64,000 nucleotides of DNA from an uncultured Granulosicoccaceae bacterium. Its GTDB lineage: Bacteria; Pseudomonadota; Gammaproteobacteria; Granulosicoccales; Granulosicoccaceae. A program made the translations under genes and the position numbers. Location: contig CALHOI010000003.1 in NCBI GenBank assembly GCA_938035525.1, positions 1 through 64,000 on the forward strand, in the 5' to 3' direction. The notes beneath the pieces are model-generated. The model made no database searches. It was not told the origin of the DNA and saw only the letters and a list, made by a program, of their open reading frames with translations. Positions 7,260-25,561 of the stretch are shown here, piece by piece. Every line of letters starts with the position of its first letter. Positions within the stretch are counted from its first letter, which is position 1.

Positions 7260-7370
7260 GGCTTAATTATCGGCCAAAACACAACCGATTCGAAAAAAAC
7301 CACATTAATTACACAATTTGCACCGCACGCAGAGCAACAATCAGTACTCAGGCATCCACAAAAAATTAGG

Positions 7371-7388
7371 CAAATATTTTCATATTTG
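7371..7388. promoter_or_regulatory. Possible operator upstream of the LacI-type gene
   Basis: CAAATA-N6-TATTTG is a perfect 6-bp dyad ending 13 bases before the LacI-type start codon, where autoregulation would act. It lacks the central CG of classical LacI/PurR operators, so assignment is tentative. The rest of the 142-base divergent gap holds nothing else recognisable. Confidence 0.3.
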
Positions 7389-7401
7389 GTACGATTGCGG
7401 T

Positions 7402-8445
7402 ATGAAACGCGCCACCAGAACTCGCAGCGGTGCACCCGGAATTGTTGATGTGGCAAACCAGGCTGGCGTATCGCCAGCCACTGTGTCGCGTTTTTTCAAT
7501 TCACCCGACGTTGTACGCGCTGACACCAGAAAAAGAATCCAAAGCGCGGCCACTGAACTTGGGTATATTCGCGATCGCATGGCAGGCGCTATGCACAATC
7601 GGTTTTCGGGCACAATCGGCCTGGTTGTGCCGACCATCAACAACACCATATTCAGTGAGCTCATTGACGCTTTTTCAAATCAACTGCTGCATCACGACAG
7701 AACCATGCTTGTAGCAAGCCACAACTACGATTTAACGTTAGAGGCATCGATTATCCGCTCACTACTGGAGCGTCGCATAGATGGCGTGGCGGTGATTGGG
7801 CAGGATCACCTGAACAGTGCAATCGACATGTTAACGGTTCGTTCCGTTCCGGTTGTTGCACTTTGGGGACCCGCATCTAATACAAGCATTCCGTTTGTGG
7901 GTGCAGACAATGAGCTTGCAGGTTTTAAGGTTACCGATCATCTAATAAAACAAGGTCATAGAGATATCGCCTTTATTTTTCCTGATGTCACCAACAATGA
8001 TCGGGCCAATGCAAGACAAAAAGGCGCAATGCGCGCCATGCAGAAAGCCAACTTAACCGTCGCGCCAAACCGTGTCCATGCCTGCCCCTACGATATTGCT
8101 GAATCAAAAAAGACAGCGTCACGCATTCTTGAAAAAAACAAACCCACAGCGATAGTTTGTGCAAACGATGTTATTGCTCACGGCGTGATTTTTGCCGCTC
8201 AAGCCATGTCTGTAAATCTGCCACAACAGTTGTCTGTGGTAGGCATAGGGGATTTTACTGGTTCAGCCGATATTGTGCCATCGCTGACCACGGTTCGCCT
8301 GCCGGCGAAACGCATTGGCCGCTTAGGCGCTGATGCCCTGGTTAAAATGAATGAGTATGGGAGCGAATATACTTTCGCCAATCAACTAATTGAAACCGAA
8401 CTGATTATCAGAGAATCGTCCAGCCATCCTGCGAGACACGGGTGA
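7402..8445 (+). CDS. LacI/PurR-family transcriptional regulator
   Basis: 347 aa from ATG 7402. The frame is open 28 codons further upstream, but the family's N-terminus starts at the chosen Met. Helix-turn-helix plus hinge: IVDVANQAGVSPATVSRFF, followed by the hinge-region ATELGY. The periplasmic-binding-protein-like effector domain starts at GTIGLVVPTINN and runs to the end, including the family segment AIVCANDVIAHG. The effector is probably a sugar or nucleoside-like ligand (family knowledge), not identifiable here. No sugar operon is adjacent; the neighbours are the BaeS-like gene (divergent) and the giant-protein operon (convergent). Target genes unknown. Confidence 0.9.
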   Translation: MKRATRTRSGAPGIVDVANQAGVSPATVSRFFNSPDVVRADTRKRIQSAATELGYIRDRMAGAMHNRFSGTIGLVVPTINNTIFSELIDAFSNQLLHHDRTMLVASHNYDLTLEASIIRSLLERRIDGVAVIGQDHLNSAIDMLTVRSVPVVALWGPASNTSIPFVGADNELAGFKVTDHLIKQGHRDIAFIFPDVTNNDRANARQKGAMRAMQKANLTVAPNRVHACPYDIAESKKTASRILEKNKPTAIVCANDVIAHGVIFAAQAMSVNLPQQLSVVGIGDFTGSADIVPSLTTVRLPAKRIGRLGADALVKMNEYGSEYTFANQLIETELIIRESSSHPARHG

Positions 8446-8476: not shown

Positions 8477-11400
8477 TTAATAGGTGCCGACCAAGTTTAC
8501 AAACCAACCTTTGACATCAAAACTATCGTTAGCAAGATTATCATCGAAACTGGTAAAGTTATAACCCACTGAAAACGTCAAGTTATCCCCCACACGCCTG
8601 CCCACGGTGAGTAACGCACCCTGACGCAAGCCATCTGTTGAACCCGAATACAACCAATGATAAGCCGCAGTCGCATCAATACCAAAGGTCGCTTTGTATC
8701 TGAGTCGTGCCGACACCAGGCTCGCATCATTGCCAATCCACACACCGGTGTTGCGCTCTAAACGAATTTCACTTTCGCGATGAGCAAGTTTTGACCCCAC
8801 ACTCCACCGATGGCTTAGATCGTAAAGACCCTCTATGCTGGTAATGAGCGAGCGCTGATCTGTACTGGTACTTTGCGACAAGGGTTGTAAGTCGTTAAGG
8901 TACGTTATGCGCGCCAGCATATTAAGACGATCATCAGAAACCGGACGCAACGCAAAGCCAATGCCAGCTTCTATAAAACGCGCATCCTCATCTGCCAACT
9001 TGTCGTCAGTTATGGCTGCGTTAAATTTACCCTGCCAACGAAAAGACGGAGAATTGCGGTATTCAAATCGATTGGTGGTAACCCACTGCTCTGTATCAAC
9101 GCTTGCGCTCTCATCCCAACGATACTCAAGCTTTGAATTAAACCTGGCTTTGTCTTTTTGATACGCCAAGCCTGCTGATACCGTGTTTCGCTCAGTGTTT
9201 TCACCATTTTCGTTTTCAACAACGGCTCGCTGCCCTGACAAACTAAATGACGTGTACTCGGTTAATTTTTGGTCTAGTCCGACAGTATGGGCAAAACCAG
9301 TGCGACTGTCCTCATCGGTGAACTGATGCTCCGAGTACACCTTTAACTGGGAGCTTAGGGTTTTACGCTGACCCAGTACAAACGAATTTTTCTCAACCTG
9401 TGATTCACTGAAAGAATACGTGTAGTTAGTGTATACGCTATAGGTATCACTGACATTAACTTCCGTTCCCAGCAGGGCACTACTGCCGCGATCACCCATA
9501 CTGACTTCACCGCGAACATTAACACTATTGCTTGCTTCTACAGTTGCACCAACGGTGGCAGAGTTATTTCTTGTTTGCGTGCCGGAATGCTGAAGCGTGA
9601 GTTGATTGATGCCATAAATATTTATTTTTGGTGTCACATCAACGGATATTTTTCCGGCTAATAAGGTTGACTCACCATTCGTGCTGTTAACCAGGTTTTC
9701 TTCGCGACTATTTTTGACTTCTGTAGACAACCCTACTCTGTCTGAATACGCATAATCCGCTTGTGCAGCAATGCTTGATTCTGTGCTCAAATTACGCTTT
9801 TCCAAACGCGAAGCTCTAGCCTGCAGCGCAATTTTATCGAAAGGTCTGGCCACCGCCTCAATACCCAAGTCTGTAGTATGCACGCCAGTATCGGTATTGG
9901 CTGTGGAGAAACCGGCCTGCTGACGCCTTGCCCATCCACCAAGCTCTACGGGCCGACTATCGGGACTGAAATCCAATAGCGAAACACGAGCCTCGATACC
10001 AAATGCATTACCAGTAGACTGGGCATTGTTGCTGACAAACGGTTCGAAACTCAAACCACCATCGGTTGACAAAAAACTGCCAGAGGTTTGCGACGATGTT
10101 GATTGCGCAACTTCTGTTTTAACGAACGTCTCGTTTGATTTTTTTAAGGTAATATCGGCGGCCCTGATTTCATAATCATCACCTTCGCGTTGCTCGTATA
10201 CCCATGTACCACCAACGCCAACATTATTACCTAGCCATTTTTTAGCTCGAACACCGGCGCTGGATTCGTTAAAGTCCAGGTTCTGCGGGCTGTATTCATA
10301 GTCCACAATCAGGTAAGTCTGGTTACCATCAAGCGGCTCGTCTCGAATAATAGACGGGCCACCCTCGGCCGCCACGCTGAGTAAAGGGCGACGTAAAATT
10401 AACCGGCCTTGAAAATCATCAATATCATAATCACGCCCGGCTACTAACGGCACCCGGTTAACCACCCGGCTGGTGCCGGCTTGACGAACTTCCACCCACA
10501 CTTTTTCAGAGCCTGCGACTATGTCAGTATCACGCAAATAGTACAAGCTGCCGCCAGTACCCAGAAACTCGTTATGCCGAAACAGGCTTTGCGCTTTGGA
10601 TGCAAATGCATTGACACTGTGCTTTGCGTCTCCCAGACTGGTGTCAACGGTGCTGTCATGGCGTAATTGCGCACCGTACAGGCTACGGTTAAAAGGTGCA
10701 AACTCAGTACCGGTGAAATTGGTGTTGTAATTTCCCCAAATTAACCGCGACCTGTCCCAGTCTACCCGTACGTATAACTTGCCTTGACTGTCTGTGTCGT
10801 CGATTAGAATGGAATCGTCGCCGTATACCGGATAATACTGATCTGGGTCTAAGCGCCGGAAAACACTGTTTGGGTCTTTGCGATGAAAATCATCGAATAG
10901 GTTTTCAATGTCTTCGGTGCCGGTGTCCATTTGAGCTGTTACCAGGTACTTACCGCGAACCTTGCCTTTTAAGTAAAACGCCAATCGACCATCAACAAAA
11001 ATATCACCACCGTAGTGATGCTCGTCAGCGGCCAGCGGTTCCACTGACCCGCTAACCTTATTTTCACCAACGGTTAAATCAGCCAGGCCAACCATAAAGA
11101 AGTAGTCGTTATCCAGGCTAACGTTAAGCTGCTTTTTAAATTCCTGTTCCTCGCTATCTCGTACCACCACATCAAATCGGTGTTCGCCTTCTGGCAATAA
11201 GTACTCAATACCAAATCTGCCGTCATCACCGAGTGTTACCGCCTGCTCGTTGATAAAAACCTGGCTGTCCTGATTAAAATCCTGCCCGAACAAACGCACT
11301 TTACTGCCACTCAACGGGATAGACTCGCGTTCCAGCTCGACGTATTCACCAAGCGTGTTTTCAAGATTTTCCAGAACAGAAATCTCGGGCAGTGGCTTTT

Positions 11401-12145
11401 CCTGCGCTGCATTGCTGTCCGCTTTAATAAATTGTATTTTGCGGCGAGTCGATTCGTCGTAGCGACCTTGTGCATCACTGGCTCTGATGGCGTATAGCAA
11501 GGTGGTACCTGGCTCAATATTCAGATCATCGGCCTGACCATCCCATTCAAACCGCTGCTCTCCAACGACCTTGTCCAGGGTTGTGGCGTAAATCGGTTTG
11601 GTTAACTGCGTAGCATCAAAAGTCCAAATGAGCAGTTCGAGTTTCTGAATAAATGCCGGGTAGTTGGTTTTGACATCAAATGCAACAGGCTCTTTCAACT
11701 GATCTTCTGACAACGAAACACTGGCTGGCGCTTTGACTTCCAGAATGCGATCAAGTGATGTCGGGTCTTTGGAAACCCACACCGCACCGCCAGAACCAAA
11801 TAAGGCCCGACGTGTTTCCTTTTTTACACTGTCAACAGGCACCTTACGCGTTAGCGTAACGTCTACACGCCGGTTATCCTGCTTGCCTTCATCGGAGGCG
11901 TTAGCGGAGCGAGGTTTTGCTTCACCTGATTTGATGATTTTTAGTATATACGGTGCCGGCTTTTCCTGTTGCGTGCTGGCCGCTTTGTTGCCCTCAGGGT
12001 TGCCCTCGGCGTCATCACCGACAGGCGTAGCACTTGTTTCTGATTTTGCTTTTTCATCAGACTTTTCGTCGGCAACCGCCACATCAACGCTGTTTATAAG
12101 CATTAAAAGTACAAAAGAGAGACAGAGCATCATTCGCGCGATCAT
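8477..12145 (-). CDS. Outer-membrane beta-barrel protein with OmpA-tail-like N-terminus
   Basis: 1222 aa, last gene of the four-gene operon; its ATG overlaps the preceding stop (ATGA). A signal peptide (about 1-25) is followed by an acidic low-complexity linker (26-65), then SGEAKP (73-78) and NRRVDVTL (91-98). These are the residues that normally close an OmpA peptidoglycan-binding domain, although no OmpA domain precedes them in this protein. Next come Ig-like modules (about 135-350) and a conserved region with YYPVYGDDS. From about 600 to the end are alternating amphipathic strands typical of a large porin-like barrel, finishing on an aromatic residue (VNLVGTY). Likely an outer-membrane anchor or export channel for the operon's other products (inference). 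Sometimes annotated loosely as TonB-dependent, but no TonB box or plug is visible. Confidence 0.75.
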   Translation of the reverse strand: MIARMMLCLSFVLLMLINSVDVAVADEKSDEKAKSETSATPVGDDAEGNPEGNKAASTQQEKPAPYILKIIKSGEAKPRSANASDEGKQDNRRVDVTLTRKVPVDSVKKETRRALFGSGGAVWVSKDPTSLDRILEVKAPASVSLSEDQLKEPVAFDVKTNYPAFIQKLELLIWTFDATQLTKPIYATTLDKVVGEQRFEWDGQADDLNIEPGTTLLYAIRASDAQGRYDESTRRKIQFIKADSNAAQEKPLPEISVLENLENTLGEYVELERESIPLSGSKVRLFGQDFNQDSQVFINEQAVTLGDDGRFGIEYLLPEGEHRFDVVVRDSEEQEFKKQLNVSLDNDYFFMVGLADLTVGENKVSGSVEPLAADEHHYGGDIFVDGRLAFYLKGKVRGKYLVTAQMDTGTEDIENLFDDFHRKDPNSVFRRLDPDQYYPVYGDDSILIDDTDSQGKLYVRVDWDRSRLIWGNYNTNFTGTEFAPFNRSLYGAQLRHDSTVDTSLGDAKHSVNAFASKAQSLFRHNEFLGTGGSLYYLRDTDIVAGSEKVWVEVRQAGTSRVVNRVPLVAGRDYDIDDFQGRLILRRPLLSVAAEGGPSIIRDEPLDGNQTYLIVDYEYSPQNLDFNESSAGVRAKKWLGNNVGVGGTWVYEQREGDDYEIRAADITLKKSNETFVKTEVAQSTSSQTSGSFLSTDGGLSFEPFVSNNAQSTGNAFGIEARVSLLDFSPDSRPVELGGWARRQQAGFSTANTDTGVHTTDLGIEAVARPFDKIALQARASRLEKRNLSTESSIAAQADYAYSDRVGLSTEVKNSREENLVNSTNGESTLLAGKISVDVTPKINIYGINQLTLQHSGTQTRNNSATVGATVEASNSVNVRGEVSMGDRGSSALLGTEVNVSDTYSVYTNYTYSFSESQVEKNSFVLGQRKTLSSQLKVYSEHQFTDEDSRTGFAHTVGLDQKLTEYTSFSLSGQRAVVENENGENTERNTVSAGLAYQKDKARFNSKLEYRWDESASVDTEQWVTTNRFEYRNSPSFRWQGKFNAAITDDKLADEDARFIEAGIGFALRPVSDDRLNMLARITYLNDLQPLSQSTSTDQRSLITSIEGLYDLSHRWSVGSKLAHRESEIRLERNTGVWIGNDASLVSARLRYKATFGIDATAAYHWLYSGSTDGLRQGALLTVGRRVGDNLTFSVGYNFTSFDDNLANDSFDVKGWFVNLVGTY

Positions 12146-15100
12146 TTTTCTTGCTCCGCGTAGGCGTCAGGATTGACTTCGACGCTTATCAATTGCATCA
12201 ACTCTTCGCCCAGATTCTCGGCCAGGATGCGTCGAATACTCTCGGCCCGACGTTCTGCCAACGCAATGTTGTATTCGTAACTGCCCCGTGAGTCGGTATG
12301 GGCTTCTATCAGGATTTGCCCACCACCGTATTCTCTAAGTTTGTTAATAATGTCGATGACAATGCCCTGCTGGTCAGCACGCACTTCATGCTTATCGGTG
12401 TCAAAAAAGACCGAACCCAGGCTCACTTCAACACTTTGATAAATACGCTCTTCTTCATTGTGTTCACACAATGCACTACTGCGATTCAGGTAAGGATCTT
12501 CATCGGGTACATTGACACCAAAGTTGATCTTGTTAAGTGATGCGTTAATAATGCGCAACACATATGGGTTTTCTGTGGTGAATCGCGCACCTTGCGGTAA
12601 CGATGCCGGGTCTACTTTTAATACAAAGTTCTGACCAATGCCGGTTGTGCCTGCATCCACATCTGGAATACTGTAACGACCATAGGCATCAGTCTGAATC
12701 AGTAAACCTGTGACAGTGGCCAAACGAACACCGGGTATACCCTCTTCGTTTAAGCCATAGTTTTGTATCACTATCTGCAACACATCAGACGGCGCGCCAT
12801 CATTTGGTGTTAATCCTGATTGGTCGGTGGGCACAGCGTTTAATCGTTGCGTGCAAACGCGAATGTCCTGACCATTGAGGCCGCGGGCTTTGTCACCAAC
12901 ATGGGCCTCGCTCACTGTGCCTTCATGATCTACAGTGATGCGCGTGCCTTCACGGGTTAATATCATGAATCGGTTGTCTTCAGACAAAGGCATGTTGACT
13001 GTTGTTGCAGTATCAGCCGGGTCGTCATTGACACTGTCACGGCCAGGAATCGGCGGCAGGGCTAAACTATTCCATCCATAGTAATTACTGCGCAACGACA
13101 TACCTGTGGCACCTGCCGGATCTTGCGCGCCATCTGAATCCCGATCATTAAACACTTTGCCCACTAGAGTGGCTTGTTCCAATACCGGATCAGGCACTAA
13201 CTCAACGGTTGCCGATACGGTATTACTGGCTATACCGCCAGGACCAGAAGCACTGGCTTTATTGGCATACGCTCCAGCAACCACGCCCACGCCAACGCGC
13301 ATAACGTATTTAAACTGAATGGTCTCGGCAGCGGCAAAGTTAACTCTGCCCAACATAATGGGGTTAAGGTCACTCGGGGTAAGCGTTTGCACCACATCAT
13401 CAGCGCTATCAAATTCACCATCAACACCAGCGCGTATCATCCGTACAGAATTTGCCACCAATGAAAAACTCGCTGGCGGTTCATCAATAATGGTGATATC
13501 CGGTGCTGGGACGTCTTTGGTGTTCTCGGCGATTAATGTATATTCAACCAGTGAACCTACCGAGACGCTGCGCTTGTCTGCGAACTTGCTCAATAGCAAC
13601 TGTGCATCGTTAGCACGCGCATCAATGGGCAGGTGATTAAAAATGATGTTCTGATCACCTGACTGCACATAGAATTCAACAAAATAGTCGGTGTTTTGGG
13701 TATCGACAGGCGCATCGGGTTGCGCCTGAACCTCACACGCATTGGTACCCGGTAATCGGTCCACCGTACAGTTGCCTTCGTTGGGGTCAGCATCAAACGT
13801 TGTCGATACAGCACATCCCAAGGTAGCGTCGCCACAGGCGTCCGCACCAACTTGACGAATAATGGACGAGAAGTTCGGGTGGTAGTCACTAGGCGCATTG
13901 GCAATTTCTATGGCATAGGAACCTATTGATGGACAAGTAACATGCGCACCCGGAATCAAATTAAACGCATACAGGCCATCGGCCAAGGTCACTTGAGATT
14001 GTTGATTGGCAAACAGGCAATCAGCATGCAATAAGTCGCCGTTACCGTTCACCATGTTCAAGGTCACGCCAGCCACAGCTTCACGACTGATGCTGTCGTA
14101 CACAACACCACCGGGGTCAACGGGCAACGGTAAGTTAACCACCTGCCCAGCCGCAACAATCCCTTCAGTGGATTGCGAATCCATGAACACACCGTTCTCG
14201 TTAAAGAAGTGCACAGTGAACGCACCGGGAATCAGGCCTTCCACAAGGTAGTAACCATTGGCATCGGTAACCGTGGTTGCCACCAGAACACCACCGGCGT
14301 CATAGACTTCTAATATCCAGCCCGCCTTTAATTCCTCACCTGCACTGATTTGACCATCGCGATCACTGTCGAGCCACACAAAACCTTCTAATGCGGCCGG
14401 CGCTTCATACGTTATCGTCAGATTGGCAAAATTGGATTCTATGTTAGTGCTGTCAGACACAACATATTGCTGTACCGTGGGGTCAGTTATAAAACCTGCA
14501 TCAGGTGTAAACGTTATGTCTCCGTTAACAGGATCAACGCTCCAAACACCTTCACCATCTATCTCCAGGGCGGTTACGCGTTGCCCGGTTTGCGGGTCAA
14601 TCAGTTTTACACTGCTTGGATCAAGGTTATTTTCCGGGTCGGTATCGTTAGCCACTGTGGCTAAAATGACAGGCTGACCCAATGATTGATCGAGCTTCTC
14701 ATCATCAATGGCACTTGGCGCGGTTTGCGGATAATCCACCGTGATTAATGCCTGATTAGAAACCAAACCGTTAATGTCAGATACTGTGTAAGTGATCGGT
14801 GTAGGGTCTAACAAGAAGCCTGCTAGTGGTGTGAAAGTGACATTGCCGGTGGCGTTATCCACCATCCAGGTACCTTCCCCGGCAACCACCAGTGTGTCAT
14901 TGTCACCATCGCCATCCGAATCGGTTGCACCGTTACCCGTGAGGTTAACGCTTTGACTATCTATGTCGTTTTCAGGATCGTTGTCCGCACCATTGCCGTT
15001 GTCAGCCAACACATTGACTGTGGTTGGATTGGATGGACTTGGGACTTGTAAATTCTGTTTGTAATCGTCTTCGGCCACTGGCGCTGTTTGCGGGTAGTTC

Positions 15101-17691
15101 ACCAGCAGTTGCGCTACATTGGATACAAGACCGGTTGCATCGCTGACAGAATAGCTGATGGGTGTTGGGTCAGCTGTAAAACCTGGCTGTGGAGTGAAAG
15201 TGATTTCACCGGTGACATCATTTACTAACCACGTACCCTCGCCAGCCACTGTCAATGTATCGTTGTCACCATCACCATCAAGGTCTATAGCACCAGCATC
15301 CGTCAGATTAACCGTGCTTACGAGTAAATCACCGTTATTGTCAAGGTCGTCCACCGCACCAGCCAGAGTCACCGGCACGGCACTCACTGGCGAATTAAAA
15401 CTGTTGTCGGTAGCAACGGGTGGCACCCTCAGCATGGGCACTACCACCGTGTTACTGCTTGCAGAGATTTCCGTGTTGTTTGGATCGGTTGCCGTAACGG
15501 AGGCCACGTTAACAATTTGCGTGGCTGTTATATCGTCAATGACAACACTTCGGGTGGCCGTACACGTAGTTTGCTCGCCAGGCAGTAGTGTAAAAGGTTG
15601 CACCAGCGCGCAGCTTAAGCTACCCGGATCAGCAATCGGGTCAGCAACCACAATATTGCTTAAGACAACATTGCCCGTGTTTGACACGGTGAAGGTGTAG
15701 TTAATGGTATTACTGATTGACGTAAAATCTGATTCAACCGCCGTCTTTACAATAGTGATGGCTGGTGCTTGAGCCACATTAGTAACAGCTGTGTCTGATT
15801 GTGTTCCCGCTTGCGCTGTGCTGACACTTACCGTGTTGGTTAACGCAAGCCCGGCATCAACATCACCTTGAGTGGCACTGAACTGTGCCAGGTAAGTCCA
15901 GCTTTCAGCAACATCCAACACACCGACACTGCCAATGTCAGCTATTGGACCCGATATAACAGCAGGTGAACCATCTGGTAAGGTATCACTGATAACAATA
16001 TCGGTAAGCGATGTATTGCCCGTGTTTTCTACGTTTATCTGATAACTTAATAAACCCGGTGCGGCAATACTGGTTTGATCAACGGTTTTTTCCACCACAA
16101 ACGAAGGCGTTCTGTTGATGGTGGTTTGCGCAGTATCACTGATGCTGTTTGTGCCAGTTTGCGTGCTGGTAACACTGACCGTGTTGGTTCTAACCAGGCC
16201 TAGATCTATTTCTGATTGTGTAACGTTATAACTGGTGGTGTATTCCCACGACTCGCCAACATCAAGCTGACCGGCTATGCCAATATCAGTTATCGGCCCT
16301 ACCAAAGTCGCGCTGGTGCCGTCAGGCAGTGTATCCACAAGCGCAACATTACTCAGGCTCACATTACCTGTGTTAGACACTAAAATCTGATAGTTCAACT
16401 GTCCGGGTTCGCTCAATGATGCCGTATCAACCGTTTTAGATACTTGCATCGCCGGCTCACTAACTACTTGCGTTATCGCAGTATCAGTAACCACAGCGGG
16501 GCCGGTTTCATCAGAAGTAAAGTTAACTTCATTGACCAAATCGCTGGTGGCGTCAATATCGGCTTGAGTGACGCTGTAACTGGCGGTGAAATCCCATTGT
16601 TCGCCTACGTCTAGCGCATTGGTGATGCCGGTATCATTCAATGGTCCAGCAACAACACCAACGCTGCCATCAGGCATGACATCGCTTGCCTGCACATTAT
16701 TAAGCGTAACGTTACCTGTGTTTCGTAAAGATATAACGTAGCTAAGCGTGCCTGGTGCATTGATACTCGCCAGATCAACCACTTTCTCAACTTCCATAGC
16801 CGGCGATACCGCAATACCGGTTTGCGCTGAATCCGTTTGCGCGGTTGTTCCGGTTTCAGTTGAGGTCACAGACACCGTGTTAACCAAGGGCACTCCCGCA
16901 TCGATCTCACCCTGAGTCACGTTGTACGTTAAGGTGTAAACCCAGGTCTCACCAACATCAAGCGCGTTAGACGTGCCCGTATCAGCCGCTGGTCCTGATA
17001 CGGTGCCGGTGGAGCCATCAGCCAGGGTATCGTTCAACGTGATACCGGTTAAGGTTTGATTACCTGAATTACTGACTTCAATGGAGTACTGCAATTGAGT
17101 CGGCGCAGATACAGTCAATTTGTCGACCGTTTTATTAACTGTAAAAGCTGGAGCTTGTGTAATTGGCGCATCAGCGCTATCACTGATCGGGTCAAGCTCG
17201 TTGGTCGCAACCGTTACCGTGTTGTCGATATCACCATCACCACCGCCAAACGAATCTATATCAGCTTGGGTGATGGCGTAGGAACCCACATACACCCACA
17301 CTTCATCGGCATCGAGCACGTTGTCGTTGTTTAGATCGCCTGCACTTAACGATAAATTGGCGGCCGGTATAATGGTGTCGGTTAAAACAACGCCGGTTAA
17401 ACCAAGTAAGCCGATATTATCAAGCGATATGGTGTAGTTGATTAAGTCACCGACCTGAGTGGGTGAAGACAATCCGGAAGCATCTGCTACTTTGGTTACA
17501 GTTAAACCTTTGGGCTTAACCAACACAGCGCTGTCGTTATTTACGCCATTATTCTCAAACTGAGTTGAGTCAGAAATAACCGTCCCGGTATTAGTGAAGT
17601 CGACTGTGGTTAGCGCATAGACCGACGTCAGCCCTGATCCTAAGAACAGGGCTGCCGTGGCACTTAGCAGCTTAACCAGAAGACGATTCAT
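12142..17691 (-). CDS. Giant DUF11/CshA-type/SdrD-B-like protein with C-terminal OmpA domain
   Basis: 1849 aa. Signal peptide 1-26; then a lone strand TVDFTNTGTVIS (29-40) and linker resembling the end of a DUF11 domain. Six DUF11-like (DUF7507-type) repeats span about 62-755. Three CshA-type fibril repeats lie at about 757-1096 (GEGTW...ITFTP). An SdrD B-like module (LDSDRDGQISAGEE) is at about 1100-1165, another complete DUF11 at about 1368-1495, carboxypeptidase-regulatory-like modules at about 1500-1740, and an OmpA peptidoglycan-binding domain at 1752-1849 (EAHTDSRGS, ERRAESIRR). The OmpA domain stops before its usual closing GxxxP...NRRV segment, which appears at the N-terminus of the next protein. 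Probably a long periplasm- or surface-spanning stalk anchored to peptidoglycan. Confidence 0.82.
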   Translation of the reverse strand: MNRLLVKLLSATAALFLGSGLTSVYALTTVDFTNTGTVISDSTQFENNGVNNDSAVLVKPKGLTVTKVADASGLSSPTQVGDLINYTISLDNIGLLGLTGVVLTDTIIPAANLSLSAGDLNNDNVLDADEVWVYVGSYAITQADIDSFGGGDGDIDNTVTVATNELDPISDSADAPITQAPAFTVNKTVDKLTVSAPTQLQYSIEVSNSGNQTLTGITLNDTLADGSTGTVSGPAADTGTSNALDVGETWVYTLTYNVTQGEIDAGVPLVNTVSVTSTETGTTAQTDSAQTGIAVSPAMEVEKVVDLASINAPGTLSYVISLRNTGNVTLNNVQASDVMPDGSVGVVAGPLNDTGITNALDVGEQWDFTASYSVTQADIDATSDLVNEVNFTSDETGPAVVTDTAITQVVSEPAMQVSKTVDTASLSEPGQLNYQILVSNTGNVSLSNVALVDTLPDGTSATLVGPITDIGIAGQLDVGESWEYTTSYNVTQSEIDLGLVRTNTVSVTSTQTGTNSISDTAQTTINRTPSFVVEKTVDQTSIAAPGLLSYQINVENTGNTSLTDIVISDTLPDGSPAVISGPIADIGSVGVLDVAESWTYLAQFSATQGDVDAGLALTNTVSVSTAQAGTQSDTAVTNVAQAPAITIVKTAVESDFTSISNTINYTFTVSNTGNVVLSNIVVADPIADPGSLSCALVQPFTLLPGEQTTCTATRSVVIDDITATQIVNVASVTATDPNNTEISASSNTVVVPMLRVPPVATDNSFNSPVSAVPVTLAGAVDDLDNNGDLLVSTVNLTDAGAIDLDGDGDNDTLTVAGEGTWLVNDVTGEITFTPQPGFTADPTPISYSVSDATGLVSNVAQLLVNYPQTAPVAEDDYKQNLQVPSPSNPTTVNVLADNGNGADNDPENDIDSQSVNLTGNGATDSDGDGDNDTLVVAGEGTWMVDNATGNVTFTPLAGFLLDPTPITYTVSDINGLVSNQALITVDYPQTAPSAIDDEKLDQSLGQPVILATVANDTDPENNLDPSSVKLIDPQTGQRVTALEIDGEGVWSVDPVNGDITFTPDAGFITDPTVQQYVVSDSTNIESNFANLTITYEAPAALEGFVWLDSDRDGQISAGEELKAGWILEVYDAGGVLVATTVTDANGYYLVEGLIPGAFTVHFFNENGVFMDSQSTEGIVAAGQVVNLPLPVDPGGVVYDSISREAVAGVTLNMVNGNGDLLHADCLFANQQSQVTLADGLYAFNLIPGAHVTCPSIGSYAIEIANAPSDYHPNFSSIIRQVGADACGDATLGCAVSTTFDADPNEGNCTVDRLPGTNACEVQAQPDAPVDTQNTDYFVEFYVQSGDQNIIFNHLPIDARANDAQLLLSKFADKRSVSVGSLVEYTLIAENTKDVPAPDITIIDEPPASFSLVANSVRMIRAGVDGEFDSADDVVQTLTPSDLNPIMLGRVNFAAAETIQFKYVMRVGVGVVAGAYANKASASGPGGIASNTVSATVELVPDPVLEQATLVGKVFNDRDSDGAQDPAGATGMSLRSNYYGWNSLALPPIPGRDSVNDDPADTATTVNMPLSEDNRFMILTREGTRITVDHEGTVSEAHVGDKARGLNGQDIRVCTQRLNAVPTDQSGLTPNDGAPSDVLQIVIQNYGLNEEGIPGVRLATVTGLLIQTDAYGRYSIPDVDAGTTGIGQNFVLKVDPASLPQGARFTTENPYVLRIINASLNKINFGVNVPDEDPYLNRSSALCEHNEEERIYQSVEVSLGSVFFDTDKHEVRADQQGIVIDIINKLREYGGGQILIEAHTDSRGSYEYNIALAERRAESIRRILAENLGEELMQLISVEVNPDAYAEQEK

Positions 17692-17721
17692 TGTGACGCT
17701 ATACCTGAGAATTGCACGTTA

Positions 17722-20700
17722 CTAAGGCGCGTTAACGGTGGCCTGAAACGTCAGGCTGACGGGCGAACCAACTGGAATCGAGTTAATAGTCCACGTCAAA
17801 CCAGCACCAGTGGGGTCAGAGTCATCAGTCGCATCTCCGCCTCCCATTGAACTGCCAACATAAGTAAAGCCTGCTGGCACTGGGTCAGTTACCGTGACAT
17901 TGGTTGCCACATCAGGACCAGCGTTGTTGACCTCTAGCGTAAACGTGATGGTCTGACCAATGTTTGGCGTGGCATCGTCAACCGTTTTGGCGATCGTTAA
18001 ATCGATACCCAAATCGTTGTTGGTTATAGAGCACGTCACATCAGAACCTGGCAGCAAGGAGATATCAGTTCCTGTTGCCGTGCCAGCCGATGGCAAGCCA
18101 GTGGTTAATCCATTGGCATCCACACAAGCCCAAGTGCCTTCCGCATAAGGGACCAAATCAAGCTCGCTGATGGTAATAAGCGTATTGGCTGTAACCGTCG
18201 TTGCTGTACCGCTGACGACTTCTGTCCCATCTATTGAAATATCGAAGTCTTCAATGGCTTCAGTACCGCCGTTATCGTTAACAACGGTTTTAACCAATGT
18301 CAGAGTCGGAGCAACATCATCGTTGGTGATTTCACACGACACCTCTGAGCCTTGTTTTAATACAATCGACTCACCTGTCGCAGCACCGGCTGTTGGCAGA
18401 CCACTGGTCAGCGCTGTGGCATCGGTACAAGACCAAGTACCTGATGTGTAACCAGCGATGGACAATTCTGAAATGATGATAGCTGTATTCGCAGCAACGG
18501 TATTGATGGCACCATTGGGAACCTCGGTTCCGTCAATGGCAATATCAAAATCGGCCACCAGCTTGTCACCGCCGTCATCATTAACCACTGTCTTGCTCAA
18601 GATCAGTGTTGGCGCAATATCATCATTCGATATCACACACTCAACCACTGCACCCGATGCCAATATGATGGTTTCGCCAGTGGCCACACCAGCACTTGGC
18701 AAGCCTGTGGTTAATCCCGTAGTGTCAGTACACGACCAGGTACCCTCGGTGTATCCCGGCAGCGCGAGTTCGCTGATTAAAATAGCGCCATTCGCCGCAA
18801 CGGTATTAACCGCGCCGTTGACAACTTCAACAGTGTCAATCGATACGTCGAAGTCTGCAACGGTCAAGTCACCACCATCATCATTAACCAGTGTTTTGGT
18901 CAGCGTTAGCGTCGGCGCGATATCGTCATTGGATATGGCACATGTGACGTCAGAGCCTGGTAGCAGGTTAACCGTGGTACTGGTGGCCAATCCTGCGCTC
19001 GGCAGACCTGTGGTTAAGCCGTTGGCGTCCGTACAAGCCCAGGTGCCTTCGGTGTAACCGTCAAGATCAAGCTCAGACAAGGTCAAATCAACATTGGCCA
19101 ATACAGTATTGGCAATACCACTGGGCACTTCGGTGGCATCAAGAGATATGTCGAAGTCATCGACAAGCAACACACCACCATCATCATTAATAACGGTTTT
19201 GGTTAGCGTAATGGTTGGTGCGATATCGTCGTTAGTAATTTCACACGTTACAATGGCACCTTCAGCTAAATTCACCGTTGTACCACTGGCTGCACCTGCA
19301 GCTGGCAGACCAGCGGTTAGGCCGGTGCTATCGGTACAAGCCCACGTGCCTTCGGTGTAGCCATCGAGATCAAGCTCTGAGATAACAATGCCTGTGTTGG
19401 CAGCGACAACCGTATTAACACCGCTAACAACCTCTGCACCATCGATAGAAATATCAAAGTCTTCAATGACTTTATCGCCACCGTTATCGTTGGTTAGTAC
19501 TTTTACAAGCGTTAACGACGGTGCTACATCATCATTGGTAATGGCACAAGTGACATCGGCACCAGGTTCAAGCGTGATACTTTCGCCCGTTGCAGCACCG
19601 GCAGCCGGTAATCCTGTTGTTAAACCGTTTGCATCGGTACAAGCCCAGGTGCCTTCGGTGTAACCTGGCAGATCCAATTCAGAAATAGTGATAGCTGTGT
19701 TAGCTAATACCGTATTGGCAGCGCCGTTAACCACCTCTGTACCATCGATAGCAATATCGAAATCGTCGATGACACTGATACCACCATTATCATTGACCAG
19801 TGATTTCGTTAAGGTTAGCGTTGGTGCAATATCGTCGTTCGATATAGAACACGTGACGTCCGCACCAGAGGCCAAGTTAATTGTTTCGCCTAATGCCACA
19901 CCAGCAGCAGGCAATCCAGTGGTTAGCGCATTGGCATCAATACATTCCCATGTGCCTTCGGTGTATCCGTCAACATCCAGCTCTGCTATCACAATGTCGG
20001 TATTGGATAATACGGTTGTAGGTACACCAGTAGTCACACCGGCACCGTCCACGGAAAGACCAAAATCCAGTGCAACCAGATCACCACCGTTGTCATTAAC
20101 CACGGTTTTTGCCAGTGTTAATGTTGGTGCAATATCGTCATTGGTAATCGAGCACGTGACGTCGCTACCTGAGGCTAAGGTGATTGACTCACCCGTAGCT
20201 AAGCCAGCTGTGGGTAAACCTGCGGCAAGCCCGTTTGCATCAATACATTCCCAGGTACCTTCGGTGTAGCCGTCCACGTCCAGTTCACTGATGGTTAGCG
20301 CAGTGTTTGCCAATACTGGGTTGGCAACGCCATTAGCCACTACCGTGGCATCTATAGAAAGCGAAAAATCGGCATCAGTTAATATACCGCCGTTGTCATT
20401 GGTGACTGTTTTCGCCAGCGTTAACGTAGGTTCGATATCATCATTAATAATGGTACAAACCGTTTGCTCACCAAATGCCAAAGTCACCGACCCTGAGTCA
20501 AACGTATCGCTGCCTACAGTGCCAACGGTACAAGACCAACTGCCCTCGGCATAGCCATCAAAATCAAGCTCAGTTAACGTGTATGTACCCGGTGGTACAT
20601 ATAAAGTGTCGGAGGTAAATGTTGTCGTGGCCCCTGCCGCCACACCCGCATCGAAGTTAAGGGTGCCTGCGCTGCTGGTCACCGCAAAATCGGCTAGACT

Positions 20701-20967
20701 CGCAACCCCGCCATGATCGTTAACAACTTGCTTGACCACAATCAACTCAGCATTCGGCGTGATTTGAACCGTGCTGGTGTTGTTGCTGATGTTGGTTTCA
20801 AACTGCGACGACGACGCAGTCACCGTTGACTGATTCAAATAGTCGCTTAATCCCAGCGACCAGGCAGTCAGTGGAACACTGAGCCCCACCAGCAACAAAC
20901 CTATTTGAGAGCGTTTGTTCATTTTACGAAAAGGCTTCATAAACGCAGGCTTTAAAGATAATTTCAT
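17722..20967 (-). CDS. Secreted repeat protein: nine prealbumin-like repeats plus truncated DUF11
   Basis: 1081 aa. A long n-region and signal peptide end near residue 37. Then SDYLNQSTVTAS (41-52), which resembles a DUF11 final strand, and a linker with NNTSTVQITP. Repeat 1 is divergent (about 73-180). Eight near-identical 101-residue repeats fill 181-988, each containing a VNDNGG-like turn, ISELDLDGYTEGTWACTDA-like core, and ending C-x-I-x-NDD. Each holds paired Cys residues, so disulfides are likely after export. The last 93 residues (989-1081) are a DUF11 domain ending SLTFQATVNAP without its terminal strand. Best read as a rigid fibre shaft. It starts 15 bases after the previous gene. 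Confidence 0.8.
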   Translation of the reverse strand: MKLSLKPAFMKPFRKMNKRSQIGLLLVGLSVPLTAWSLGLSDYLNQSTVTASSSQFETNISNNTSTVQITPNAELIVVKQVVNDHGGVASLADFAVTSSAGTLNFDAGVAAGATTTFTSDTLYVPPGTYTLTELDFDGYAEGSWSCTVGTVGSDTFDSGSVTLAFGEQTVCTIINDDIEPTLTLAKTVTNDNGGILTDADFSLSIDATVVANGVANPVLANTALTISELDVDGYTEGTWECIDANGLAAGLPTAGLATGESITLASGSDVTCSITNDDIAPTLTLAKTVVNDNGGDLVALDFGLSVDGAGVTTGVPTTVLSNTDIVIAELDVDGYTEGTWECIDANALTTGLPAAGVALGETINLASGADVTCSISNDDIAPTLTLTKSLVNDNGGISVIDDFDIAIDGTEVVNGAANTVLANTAITISELDLPGYTEGTWACTDANGLTTGLPAAGAATGESITLEPGADVTCAITNDDVAPSLTLVKVLTNDNGGDKVIEDFDISIDGAEVVSGVNTVVAANTGIVISELDLDGYTEGTWACTDSTGLTAGLPAAGAASGTTVNLAEGAIVTCEITNDDIAPTITLTKTVINDDGGVLLVDDFDISLDATEVPSGIANTVLANVDLTLSELDLDGYTEGTWACTDANGLTTGLPSAGLATSTTVNLLPGSDVTCAISNDDIAPTLTLTKTLVNDDGGDLTVADFDVSIDTVEVVNGAVNTVAANGAILISELALPGYTEGTWSCTDTTGLTTGLPSAGVATGETIILASGAVVECVISNDDIAPTLILSKTVVNDDGGDKLVADFDIAIDGTEVPNGAINTVAANTAIIISELSIAGYTSGTWSCTDATALTSGLPTAGAATGESIVLKQGSEVSCEITNDDVAPTLTLVKTVVNDNGGTEAIEDFDISIDGTEVVSGTATTVTANTLITISELDLVPYAEGTWACVDANGLTTGLPSAGTATGTDISLLPGSDVTCSITNNDLGIDLTIAKTVDDATPNIGQTITFTLEVNNAGPDVATNVTVTDPVPAGFTYVGSSMGGGDATDDSDPTGAGLTWTINSIPVGSPVSLTFQATVNAP
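18004..20427. repeat. Eight in-frame 303-bp tandem repeats
   Basis: Residues 181-988 of the encoded protein divide exactly into eight units of 101 aa, so the DNA divides into eight 303-bp units (2424 bp). The units are well conserved in protein but differ at many silent and some replacement sites, so they are old enough to have diverged and the assembly here is unlikely to be collapsed. Unit number could still vary between strains by recombination. Confidence 0.85.
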
Positions 20968-20982
20968 TTCATCAACTCGTCA

Positions 20983-22854
20983 TTAGGGTGCCAACACCGT
21001 CGCCTGAAATGTCAAAGACACAGACGAACCAGAAGGCAGAGTGTTGATTGTCCAATCCAAACCCGTTCCTGCAGGAGAGCTGTCGTCTTGAGCATCACCA
21101 CCTGTCATGGACGAGGCAATGTAGCTAAAACCAGCTGGAACGGAATCCAATACATGTAAGTCAGAGGCGGTGTCCGGGCCACTGTTTTCTATTAATAAAG
21201 TGAATGTCAGCGTGTCACCTATATTGGGTGCGTCATCATTCACCGATTTTTTAATGCTCAGGTCGACTGCCTGATCGTTATTGGCAAATACACAAGTTAT
21301 TTTTTCGCCTGCCACAATATCGAGACCATCGCTGGCATCACTGTCGCTGCCATCACACTTGATACCGTCGAGGCTATAGCCATTGAGAGCACTTTCACTC
21401 AGGGTATAACTACCCGCCGGTACCGTGACTCCGGTAATCGCCGCATCACCCATTACGCCAGACCCGTTGGCACTGGCGCCCGAGAAACTCAACGTAAAGT
21501 CAGACACCACAGCTGTACCGCCGTTGTCATTAACGATTTGCTTTTCAAGTGTCAGCGTTGAAAAAGGGTCATCATCGTTGGTGATGGTGCAGATGGCGTG
21601 ATCACCGCCAACGACCTCTATCTTTGGGCCACTGGCAGTCGTTGCACCTGTGCATACCCATGCACCGGTTGTGTATCCTGGCATGGTTGTTTCTGCCAAG
21701 ATGTATGTACCAGGAGTAACCACGGCTTTTGTCACCGATGCAGTGCCACTGACACCCGATATGGAATCAGTGCCGGTGGCACTTAAAACAAAGTCGGCAA
21801 TAGTGGCGGTACCACCATCGTCATTAATCAGATTTTTAATCAGCGTGATTTCGGCACCAGCAAATGCCCAGTAGTAAACCGGTTCGTTAGTGTGATTACG
21901 AGACGTATCGCCCGTGAAGGTGTCTTCATCAACTGCCAGATTGATTGCATTGGCCGGCAAGGGCGTAGCACTGTATAAAACCGCGTAGCTGCCATTACCA
22001 CCATCTTCAGCGCCCTGCGTCAGTACAGCCATGGTGTGATCGCGAGAAACGTTATAGGTGTCACCCGTGTTGCCCGCATTGTTACCGGCAACCGTGTCAG
22101 AACCCAGAGCCAGCTCGTAAAAAACATTGTTGATCGTGCCACTGCCAGTTTCCCCGATAATGTATCCGATGGTTTCGGGGGCGCGGGAATCGGCGATTTG
22201 ACCAATGTGCTTGCCAACACAAATACTGTTTGGATTGGCTCCACTGAACGGATGATCTCGGCGAGATGCGCAGTTAGTGATATACGGCACACTGGCACGG
22301 TTATCGTTGTAGCTCATGACGGACGCTTGCACGACAGGCGCGCTGTAGCTGTGCACAATGCTCGCACTGACATCTTCCATCAACGCCAGCGACCATCCGC
22401 CATCCGTTGCAAATTGTCCATTGGTTTGATCGGACAACACGCTGTGTGCTTCAACTAATCGACCATCAGGTAAGGTGTGCGCACCTTCCTCCATGATCAT
22501 GCAATGCACATCGCCTGCAGACGCACTGGAGTCTTCCCAACCCTGGATTCTGACCTGGAAAGAACTGGCGCCGATGTTTCTGATACGTACCACAGCCGGT
22601 GGATTGGTGTAGTTAGGGTTCGCGCCAGCAAACGTCTCTAGAACGTAAGTACAGACGGGAATTGCATTGGTGTAGGTGTTATCCAAGGACACCGTGGTCC
22701 AGGCTGTGGATACATTGGGCACCAAAACCGACTCAAAGTACGGGGTTAAAACCAGCGCCCTGGCGTTTTGCGCGCACAGCACAACACTCACCAACAGCAA
22801 AAGCTGCAGCAAGTTCACTCGCTGTTTGTTCAAATATCGCGGAAACGCTTTCAA
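20983..22854 (-). CDS. Secreted protein with lectin-like N-terminal domain, two prealbumin-like repeats and truncated DUF11
   Basis: 623 aa, first gene of the operon. TTG is the only plausible start: a stop codon lies directly upstream and no clear ribosome-binding site is visible. Signal peptide ends near residue 33 (NARA). Residues 34-335 form a beta-rich region of unknown fold (TAWTTVSLDNTYTN, PAVVRIRNIGASSFQVRIQG, MEEGAHTLPDG); it resembles an H-type-lectin-like module often found at the ends of large surface proteins, from memory of the family. Repeats at 336-430 and 433-528 match those of the next gene. DUF11 at 531-623 ends SLTFQATVLAP, lacking its last strand. No lone strand sits at the N-terminus, as expected for a fibre tip. 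Confidence 0.75.
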   Translation of the reverse strand: MKAFPRYLNKQRVNLLQLLLLVSVVLCAQNARALVLTPYFESVLVPNVSTAWTTVSLDNTYTNAIPVCTYVLETFAGANPNYTNPPAVVRIRNIGASSFQVRIQGWEDSSASAGDVHCMIMEEGAHTLPDGRLVEAHSVLSDQTNGQFATDGGWSLALMEDVSASIVHSYSAPVVQASVMSYNDNRASVPYITNCASRRDHPFSGANPNSICVGKHIGQIADSRAPETIGYIIGETGSGTINNVFYELALGSDTVAGNNAGNTGDTYNVSRDHTMAVLTQGAEDGGNGSYAVLYSATPLPANAINLAVDEDTFTGDTSRNHTNEPVYYWAFAGAEITLIKNLINDDGGTATIADFVLSATGTDSISGVSGTASVTKAVVTPGTYILAETTMPGYTTGAWVCTGATTASGPKIEVVGGDHAICTITNDDDPFSTLTLEKQIVNDNGGTAVVSDFTLSFSGASANGSGVMGDAAITGVTVPAGSYTLSESALNGYSLDGIKCDGSDSDASDGLDIVAGEKITCVFANNDQAVDLSIKKSVNDDAPNIGDTLTFTLLIENSGPDTASDLHVLDSVPAGFSYIASSMTGGDAQDDSSPAGTGLDWTINTLPSGSSVSLTFQATVLAP

Positions 22855-23251: not shown

Positions 23252-25561
23252 ATGACACGCAGCGTTACAGGCTATTTACTCACCAGACATTGGCGAGACA
23301 CCAATGATGGAATCGAGCTATGCTTCTGGGGCAAAAGCGAGCAAGGCCCGGTACGGTTAGCGATTAGTCACCAGGAAGCGGTGTGTTTTATTGAACGCAG
23401 TAATACGTTACCAACCCCACAACATACCAGACGCGAACCCTTATCACTAAAAACCATGAGCGGAGAACCAGTTGATGGTTTGTACTTTAGGCATCAGCGA
23501 GATTTAAGCACTTTAAGGCAGCACGACATTGCTCTGCTTGAATCAGATATCAAACCCAGTGATCGATTCCTGATGGAACGTTTTGTTTGCGCAGGGTTTA
23601 ACGCGAGCGGCGAAGTAATTAATAACGGCGATCACTTATCGCTGATAAATCCGAAAATAAAACCGGCTACTGTATCCCCCAGATTAACCGCGCTGTCTTT
23701 GGACATAGAAACGCGCGGCAGCTCAGATCAGCTCTACTCTGTTGCCGGTTCCATCATGCACGGCAATGCCAATCAAAACCGGGTTTACATGATTGGCGAA
23801 GGCGCAATAATAAATCGTAACGGATACCAGTTGCATTTTCACAAAGACGAGCAAAGCCTGCTTATGGCTTTTTTCGCATGGCTAAAAGAAGTCGACCCGG
23901 ATGTCATTATCGGTTGGGCTATTGTGAATTTTGATTTAAATTTCATCGATCGTAAATGCCGCACCCTGGGTATTCGTTTTGACATGGGTCGCGGTAACGA
24001 TGCAGCAGCTGTATTGCAACCGGGCAACCCCGGCCAACCTCGTATGGCCAAGCTTCCCGGTCGAGCCGTGCTCGATGGTATCGACTTACTGAAAGCCGGG
24101 TTTTGGGCTTTTGATAGTTTCTCTTTGGACAACGTTGCGCATGAGCTGCTTGGTGAGGGCAAGTTAATAACCAGTAACGAAAATAAAGTGGCTCGTATTA
24201 ATGAGTTGTTTAACAACGACAAACCGCAGTTGGCAGACTACAACATCAAAGACTGTCAATTGGTTAATGATATTTTTGTCAAAGCCGACCTAATTGAATT
24301 TGCGCTGCAAAGAGCCAATTTAACGGGTCTGGCAATAGACCGACTGGGCGGTTCGGTTGCCGCATTCGACAACTTGTACTTACCAAGACTGCATCGCCAT
24401 GGGTTTGTTGCACCTGATGTCGACAACACGAACACCGGTCTGGGCAGCCCGGGTGGTTACGTGCTCGATTCAGCGCCGGGCATCTACCGAAATGTGCTCG
24501 TACTCGATTTTAAAAGCCTGTACCCCAGCATTATCAGAACATTTTGCATAGACCCCATGGGCTTGTTACAACACGGTGAGAACCCAATTCCAGGATTTAT
24601 GGAAGCTCACTTTTCCCGGCATACCCATATTCTGCCTGGCATTATTGAATCACTGTGGGAGGCACGAGATGTCGCCAAAAAAGAATCCAACAAGCCATTG
24701 TCTCAAGCCATAAAAATTATCATGAACTCTTTTTACGGCGTGCTTGGTACCAACGGCTGCCGCTTCCACTCACACCAACTTGCATCGAGTATCACACGAC
24801 GCGGGCACGACATAATAACGACATCCAGAGATGAAATTGAGTCCCAGGGTTATCGTGTCATTTATGGCGACACAGATTCCTTATTTGTTCTGGTGGGCGA
24901 GAACCATACACAACAAAGTGCACACGACATTGGCGTGCGCTTAACCGACATGCTAAACGAGTGGTGGCGCAAACAGTTGAAAGACGAATTTGATCTTGCC
25001 TGTTACCTGGAAGTGGAATTTGAAACCCTGTACTCACGATTCCTGATGCCTACGGTTCGCGGTATGCCAACTGGAAGTAAAAAAAGATACGCCGGACTGG
25101 TTACCGATGATAACGGCAACAATAAACTGGTGGTAAAGGGGCTGGAGGCTGCACGCACCGACTGGACACCACTGGCAAGAGAATTTCAGCGAACTTTATT
25201 CGAACTTATTTTTAACGACCAACCATTCGAACAGTTTGTACGAGATACCGCAACGGCCTTGCTTAATGGTGAGAGAGATGCAGATATTAGTTATCGAAAA
25301 CGGCTGCGGCGCAAGCTCGATGACTATCAACGCAACGTGCCACCGCATGTACAAGCGGCCAGAAAAATGCGCTCTAAACCCGGCAGCTGGGTAAGCTATA
25401 TCATAACCAGAAACGGCCCAGAGCCCACCGATAACATAACCGCCCTGCCCGACTACCAACACTATATGGATAAGCAATTAGCACCGGCAGCAGACGGCAT
25501 TTTGCAATTCATGGGAACAAGCTTTAGCGCAATCACTGATGCGCAAATGCAGATGTTTTAG
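23252..25561 (+). CDS. polB: DNA polymerase II (family B)
   Basis: 769 aa (E. coli Pol II has 783). Repair and translesion-capable DNA polymerase with a 3'-5' proofreading exonuclease. Exo I motif LDIETRG with Asp151/Glu153; polymerase motif A DFKSLYPSII starting at Asp419; motif C YGDTDSLF with Asp540 and Asp542. The Exo II-like segment IIGWAIVNFDLNFI is also present. All catalytic acids are kept, so it should be active. In E. coli polB is SOS-induced, but no CTG-N10-CAG box is seen in the 250 bases upstream, so control may differ here. A second damage-related polymerase gene (dnaE2) in the same window does have a LexA box. Confidence 0.95.
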   Translation: MTRSVTGYLLTRHWRDTNDGIELCFWGKSEQGPVRLAISHQEAVCFIERSNTLPTPQHTRREPLSLKTMSGEPVDGLYFRHQRDLSTLRQHDIALLESDIKPSDRFLMERFVCAGFNASGEVINNGDHLSLINPKIKPATVSPRLTALSLDIETRGSSDQLYSVAGSIMHGNANQNRVYMIGEGAIINRNGYQLHFHKDEQSLLMAFFAWLKEVDPDVIIGWAIVNFDLNFIDRKCRTLGIRFDMGRGNDAAAVLQPGNPGQPRMAKLPGRAVLDGIDLLKAGFWAFDSFSLDNVAHELLGEGKLITSNENKVARINELFNNDKPQLADYNIKDCQLVNDIFVKADLIEFALQRANLTGLAIDRLGGSVAAFDNLYLPRLHRHGFVAPDVDNTNTGLGSPGGYVLDSAPGIYRNVLVLDFKSLYPSIIRTFCIDPMGLLQHGENPIPGFMEAHFSRHTHILPGIIESLWEARDVAKKESNKPLSQAIKIIMNSFYGVLGTNGCRFHSHQLASSITRRGHDIITTSRDEIESQGYRVIYGDTDSLFVLVGENHTQQSAHDIGVRLTDMLNEWWRKQLKDEFDLACYLEVEFETLYSRFLMPTVRGMPTGSKKRYAGLVTDDNGNNKLVVKGLEAARTDWTPLAREFQRTLFELIFNDQPFEQFVRDTATALLNGERDADISYRKRLRRKLDDYQRNVPPHVQAARKMRSKPGSWVSYIITRNGPEPTDNITALPDYQHYMDKQLAPAADGILQFMGTSFSAITDAQMQMF

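Follow-up and report, generated by a model that had tools for sequence, protein, structure and literature searches.

Within a 64,000-nucleotide stretch of contig CALHOI010000003.1 (assembly GCA_938035525.1, from an uncultured Granulosicoccaceae bacterium; hereafter the window), four open reading frames are arranged in tandem on the minus strand, and their products very probably are the parts of a single surface fibre that are exported apart and joined by mutual domain completion. Three of the proteins end in a DUF11 or OmpA domain that lacks its last portion, and the missing portion is found near the start of the protein encoded next. With less assurance, we favour the view that the operon is a natural, genome-encoded tag/catcher system, in which subunits weld by autocatalytic Lys-Asn bonds, an OmpA domain is shared by stalk and barrel, and tips are interchangeable. 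Each of the four pieces carries its own signal peptide, as a first-pass annotation of this DNA had claimed. The genes encode the following proteins, with lengths given in amino acids (aa):

20983..22854, minus strand: 623-aa exported protein, likely the tip, with a unique N-terminal region, two SpaA-like domains and a C-terminal DUF11 domain without its last two strands.
17722..20967, minus strand: 1081-aa exported shaft-like protein, with an N-terminal DUF11 tail, nine SpaA-like repeats and a truncated C-terminal DUF11 domain.
12142..17691, minus strand: 1849-aa exported stalk, with an N-terminal DUF11 tail followed by DUF11/DUF7507 repeats, and further with CshA-like repeats, SdrD_B, a complete DUF11 domain and a truncated OmpA domain.
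8477..12145, minus strand: 1222-aa outer-membrane barrel protein, with a C-terminal aromatic outer-membrane signature (identified by eye).

The Pfam DUF11 matches at the C-termini of the 623-aa and 1081-aa proteins end at model positions 85 and 86 of 114, respectively, in agreement with the earlier observation that both domains stop at the same point. The missing end does open the mature 1081-aa and 1849-aa proteins, whose tails are homologous to one another; it had been described as one strand plus a linker, and this part of the description did not hold. Joining of the pieces in silico raised the Pfam DUF11 score from 78.6 to 96.6 bits for the 623-aa and 1081-aa pair (coverage 1-114 of 114) and from 88.6 to 96.2 bits for the 1081-aa and 1849-aa pair (1-112 of 114), and in neither case was the whole-domain profile reached until body and tail were joined. 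The donor is therefore the last two strands of the domain, the supposed linker included. The elements of the two DUF11 joints are:

20986..21264, minus strand: acceptor, truncated DUF11 (CLIPPER, as the family has been renamed) body of the 623-aa protein, with Lys536 and Asp570; Pfam DUF11 positions 1-85 of 114.
20755..20859, minus strand: donor hairpin of the 1081-aa protein, residues 37-71, with Asn45; completes the 623-aa DUF11 domain in Pfam.
17725..18003, minus strand: acceptor, truncated DUF11 body of the 1081-aa protein, with Lys994 and Asp1028; Pfam DUF11 positions 1-86 of 114.
17512..17613, minus strand: donor hairpin of the 1849-aa protein, residues 27-60, with Asn34; completes the 1081-aa DUF11 domain to position 112 of 114.

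The same cut point recurs in related loci. All proteins of the fetched loci were scanned with a DUF11 model built from internal domains, and 74 C-terminal DUF11 domains ended at positions 74-86 of its 118; another 18 proteins ended no more than 60 residues from a weaker DUF11 match, most of them, by eye, in the same strand. No complete C-terminal DUF11 domain was found among these loci, while 612 of the 625 internal domains reached beyond position 90. Judged from sequence, this pattern of truncation is more than chance. The tails were recognised by comparison of their profile with the last columns of complete DUF11 domains, which scored 25.1 (the maximum in 60 column shuffles was 17.3). A 37-column tail model found matches with an E-value of 0.1 or better in 17 of 695 N-termini and in none of 3475 shuffled ones; it missed the window's own tails, and the profile-profile comparison was used for this reason.

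The DUF11 family was renamed CLIPPER with a crystal structure that contains a Lys-Asn isopeptide bond and a catalytic Asp; with this bond (Lys715-Asn806), unfolding shifts from about 45 to 80 C (PMC12617251). Counted along the printed alignment, the Asp that aligns falls at residue 749; the publication gives 748 (PMC12617251). In the window and its relatives, this set of residues is divided between chains: Lys and Asp on the truncated bodies and Asn on the tails are invariant in 12 of 12 junction rows. Across loci, the truncated domains have the Lys in 60 of 60 scorable cases and the Asp in 68 of 69, and the Asn column is absent from 68 of 69; the Asn was found in all 31 listed tails. Internal DUF11 domains have all three residues almost without exception (Lys 412/412, Asp 408/412, Asn 412/412). 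The presence of Lys and Asp upstream and of Asn on the downstream tail therefore points to a natural tag/catcher junction that would be covalent between chains, and an intermolecular Lys-Asn isopeptide bond is probably formed at both DUF11 joints.

Split DUF11 domains are also encoded elsewhere in the same genome. An unlinked gene (L181:571-1773; G000:C17, about 49.3-50.5 kb) encodes a 400-aa exported protein, a possible alternative tip, with a C-terminal DUF11 domain that is cut at the same point and has both Lys and Asp; as this protein offers the same acceptor, tips may be exchangeable. A second split-DUF11 system (L038:1806-11098; G000:C11), with similar ones in L039-L044, consists of two proteins with a DUF11 tail at the N-terminus, one of 1007 aa and the other a barrel protein of 2051 aa; the truncated C-terminal DUF11 domain of the 1007-aa protein is without the isopeptide Lys. 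Loci related to this second system have another gene of the same kind further downstream.

The joint between stalk and barrel is built from an OmpA domain. The first-pass annotation had proposed that the 1849-aa protein lacks the end of this domain and that the 1222-aa protein carries it after its signal peptide, and the Pal and YiaD matches bear this out: the Pal/OmpA match in the 1849-aa protein ends at position 67 of 104, and residues 69-98 of the 1222-aa protein, which follow the signal peptide, match positions 177-206 of the 206 in the YiaD OmpA model (E=0.0015). The lone OmpA end of a close homologue matches 14 OmpA-type models, mostly at their last positions (YiaD 177-206 of 206, E=2.6e-5). 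A version of the third OmpA strand occurs in each of the two window proteins; when the first strand of the 1222-aa piece was substituted for the last strand of the 1849-aa protein, the OmpA score rose from 43.3 to 51.7 bits (1-98 of 98), the complete profile being reached only across the two chains. The donor piece here is the whole domain end, i.e., strand, loop, NRR segment and strand. The pieces at the three junctions of the operon are recognised by independent Pfam and NCBIfam models. The elements of this joint are:

12145..12417, minus strand: acceptor, OmpA domain of the 1849-aa protein without its end; Pal match 2-67 of 104, with TD...RRA retained.
11852..11953, minus strand: donor, OmpA end of the 1222-aa protein, residues 65-98, YILKIIKSGEAKP...NRRVDVTL; YiaD OmpA model 177-206 of 206.

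The role of the TD...RRA residues in other OmpA domains is to bind peptidoglycan. Most homologues of the 1222-aa protein, L046 and L095 among them, have two Cys residues a few positions apart immediately ahead of the OmpA end; this pair is absent in the window.

Two natural read-through junctions, one of the 623-1081 type and one an OmpA pair from a Pseudoxanthomonas homologue, were modelled with AlphaFold. In the former, the DUF11 body and the tail strands have a predicted local distance difference test score (pLDDT) of about 82-95, the donor hairpin of the 1081-aa type lying at 82-92, and the linker is at about 40-50. The model superimposes on the CLIPPER crystal domain 9ifr with a Z of 13.0 and a root-mean-square deviation of 2.7 over 121 of 123 residues, and on a CARDB domain over 110 of 110 residues. 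From these alignments to complete domains it follows that the tail fills the place of the last strands. In the OmpA pair the block means reach 84 and 79 for the strands of the tail, and the model aligns with Pal (4g4w) over 108 of 108 residues and with 9uu2 at a Z of 12.2. In these tethered read-through chains, then, both the DUF11 and the OmpA tails dock. Relatives in which the split domain is continuous were also found: L021 encodes a single protein of 2249 aa in which stalk and barrel are connected by an unbroken OmpA domain that matches OmpA models from end to end, and L120 has tip and complete DUF11 domain in one protein, where a related tip, that of L101, is encoded by a gene of its own that ends at the cut point. 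Stalk-barrel fusions with an apparent relic signal peptide inside the OmpA region occur in L066, L073, L074, L075 and L080, and in L127 (G147:C2) an open frame of 11,777 codons has barrel and stalk regions in a single chain.

The operon is present in related genomes, where the shaft protein ranges from 480 to 1597 aa and its ends stay constant. A scan of GTDB genomes returned 78 loci, about 50 of which have a truncated OmpA domain followed by a gene with an OmpA end; they span Granulosicoccaceae, Cocleimonas, Kangiella, Lysobacter, Stenotrophomonas, Pseudoxanthomonas, Corticibacter and Lampropedia, so that the split point is kept across families. The gaps between the split genes vary in these roughly 50 loci, and often consist of an ATGA overlap. 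The split loci form two well-supported clades in the tree, in which some of those labelled split (certain Cocleimonas and Leucothrix paralogues) have a degenerate OmpA domain whose NRRV end is not recognisable. In L064, L067, L069, L072 and L077, which are Cocleimonas/Leucothrix paralogues of this kind, the genes are still split and the peptidoglycan residues are apparently lost. The barrel family is matched in about 14% of sampled genomes, in class and phylum alike, and not all of the matches have the split. In the Lysobacter clade, acceptor-bearing tip genes lie downstream of the barrel gene in many loci and not upstream of it, and the upstream-to-downstream gene order of the earlier reading has to be modified to this extent.

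These observations support donor-strand complementation, the reading put forward in the first-pass annotation, with three further amendments: the DUF11 donor is a two-strand hairpin, an isopeptide bond is probable at the DUF11 joints, and the OmpA piece is a whole domain end. In the proposed assembly, the four proteins would be made separately, each exported by Sec, and then folded. The donor hairpin of each protein would fold into the acceptor of its upstream partner, and the acceptor Lys, assisted by Asp, would react with the donor Asn to form a spontaneous isopeptide bond linking the two chains. The OmpA joint would be a non-covalent lock of stalk to barrel on the periplasmic side, and could also hold peptidoglycan through its retained residues, as their general role suggests. 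The order would be tip (623 aa), shaft (1081 aa, possibly in several copies), stalk (1849 aa) and barrel (1222 aa), with interchangeable tips. Both this order and export to the surface are inferred; the domains of stalk and shaft are far too many for the periplasm, and these two parts are therefore probably outside the cell. The 623-aa protein is likely the tip, a prediction from its sequence: phmmer with tail queries found no N-terminal tail in it, in line with the earlier statement that the first protein has no lone N-terminal strand, and a Pfam scan matched no family in its N-terminal region.

Several points weigh against this account. The modelled pairs are read-through single chains, tethered rather than free complexes; the OmpA pair comes from the Pseudoxanthomonas homologue; and two of five DUF11 models have a mean pLDDT near 58. 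The single-sequence joining test, run with a DUF11 model of our own that had shifted towards DUF7507, told cognate from random N-termini only to a modest degree, with 3 of 19 pairs beating all 150 controls and each of the window pairs equalled or beaten by 2 of 150. Finally, the second split system of the same genome is without the Lys, which means that complementation need not imply a covalent bond. It is this last point, together with the lack of isopeptide chemistry at the OmpA joint and the failure of some CnaB domains to react when artificially split (PMC5487036), that speaks for a rather unlikely alternative in which the domains complete each other non-covalently, in the manner of chaperone-usher subunits, and the inherited Lys-Asp-Asn set is unreactive across chains. 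The invariance of all three residues in the 12 junction rows argues the other way, as does the fact that no scorable truncated domain in the main system has lost the Lys; the truncated domains without it all belong to the second system. It is possible, though we would not bet on it, that the 1081-aa protein polymerises with itself into a long shaft, of which the other proteins are minor end pieces. This protein combines an N-terminal donor with a C-terminal acceptor, its tail and that of the 1849-aa protein are homologous and its acceptor may not tell them apart, and the operon order fits one or more copies of it; variation in repeat number (480-1597 aa) would, on the other hand, also tune fibre length without polymerisation.

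Two further explanations would deny the split any part in assembly or leave the pieces without partners. The in-frame gaps of 15 bases (623/1081) and 30 bases (1081/1849), together with the existence of fused homologues, would fit gene breaks that are recent fissions, frameshifts or assembly artefacts of one long adhesin. Such an origin is extremely improbable in view of the separate signal peptide on each piece, the recurrence of the split with varied gaps in many families, and the two large clades that the split loci form. At the 1849/1222 boundary, the start codon of the 1222-aa gene overlaps the stop codon of the 1849-aa gene in a four-base ATGA. The frameshift idea was rejected, the split being conserved and the signal peptides separate. 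It is also improbable, if to a lesser degree, that the terminal pieces are partnerless leftovers and that something else closes the acceptors, either another periplasmic protein or a strand of their own. In the Lysobacter clade the gene immediately upstream does not encode an acceptor, as this explanation would have it, but many loci have their acceptor genes on the other side of the barrel gene, downstream, and the Asn and the spacing of the tail are conserved. We came across none of the findings that the first-pass annotation had named as speaking against its reading, i.e., C-terminal domains predicted to close on their own beside disordered N-terminal segments, gene breaks caused by frameshifts, or homologues that keep the operon without the terminal segments.

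Pfam and NCBIfam matches give the four proteins the architecture of a fibrillar adhesin, with tandem stalk domains and an anchor, and the systems most closely related to them are fibrillar adhesins made of one chain, with a CLIPPER stalk and an OmpA anchor. Among these, B9T28_05395 of Acinetobacter silvestris (9IFR, PMC12617251) shares the CLIPPER stalk, the OmpA-like anchor domain and the Lys-Asn chemistry, and its CLIPPER domain has the same fold as the modelled window junction; however, it is described as one chain with intramolecular bonds, whereas in the window the domain is divided over two proteins and the bond would be intermolecular. SpyTag/SpyCatcher and its relatives are likewise isopeptide domains split so that a short strand and the remainder react between chains (PMC5487036), but they are man-made from Gram-positive domains, and the split in the window is natural, genomic and conserved. 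The archaeal thread protein Saci_0406 combines donor-strand complementation with a proposed intermolecular isopeptide bond, though as a homopolymer in which an N-terminal amine would be linked to an Asn, across subunits n and n+2, and with neither DUF11 nor OmpA (PMC9715654). TasA fibres of Bacillus subtilis (PMC9674648) share donor-strand exchange between matrix protein subunits; they involve a single subunit type and are not known to have an isopeptide bond or an outer-membrane anchor.

In chaperone-usher pili, such as type 1 and P pili, a subunit has its Ig-like fold completed by an N-terminal extension from its neighbour. The principle of strand completion is similar, but the window system has other domain families, two donated strands and a joint between an OmpA domain and a barrel. 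No match to the usher family PF00577 was found in its own genome (88% complete), and there was no chaperone or usher among the ten neighbouring genes scanned; the system is not a chaperone-usher pilus. We found no description of a split DUF11 or split OmpA assembly among the open-access papers that we searched. If the proposed assembly is correct, many Gram-negative adhesins whose DUF11 and OmpA proteins are annotated separately would in fact be parts of one assembled fibre, and the rule by which they join would be readable from sequence. The DUF11 joint would correspond in nature to the engineered SpyTag/SpyCatcher and would itself need no usher or sortase, and a peptidoglycan-binding OmpA domain shared out between stalk and barrel would tie the fibre to the envelope. 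The split pairs could also be a source of new protein-ligation reagents.

The sequence profile of the 1222-aa barrel protein matched no solved structure convincingly (best E 0.58). The operon is flanked by genes for a LacI-type regulator (7318-8445) and DNA polymerase II (23252-25561), two flanks that appear swapped in L023 relative to the window, and a signal peptidase S26-like gene lies at 3466-4200, about 4 kb from the operon.

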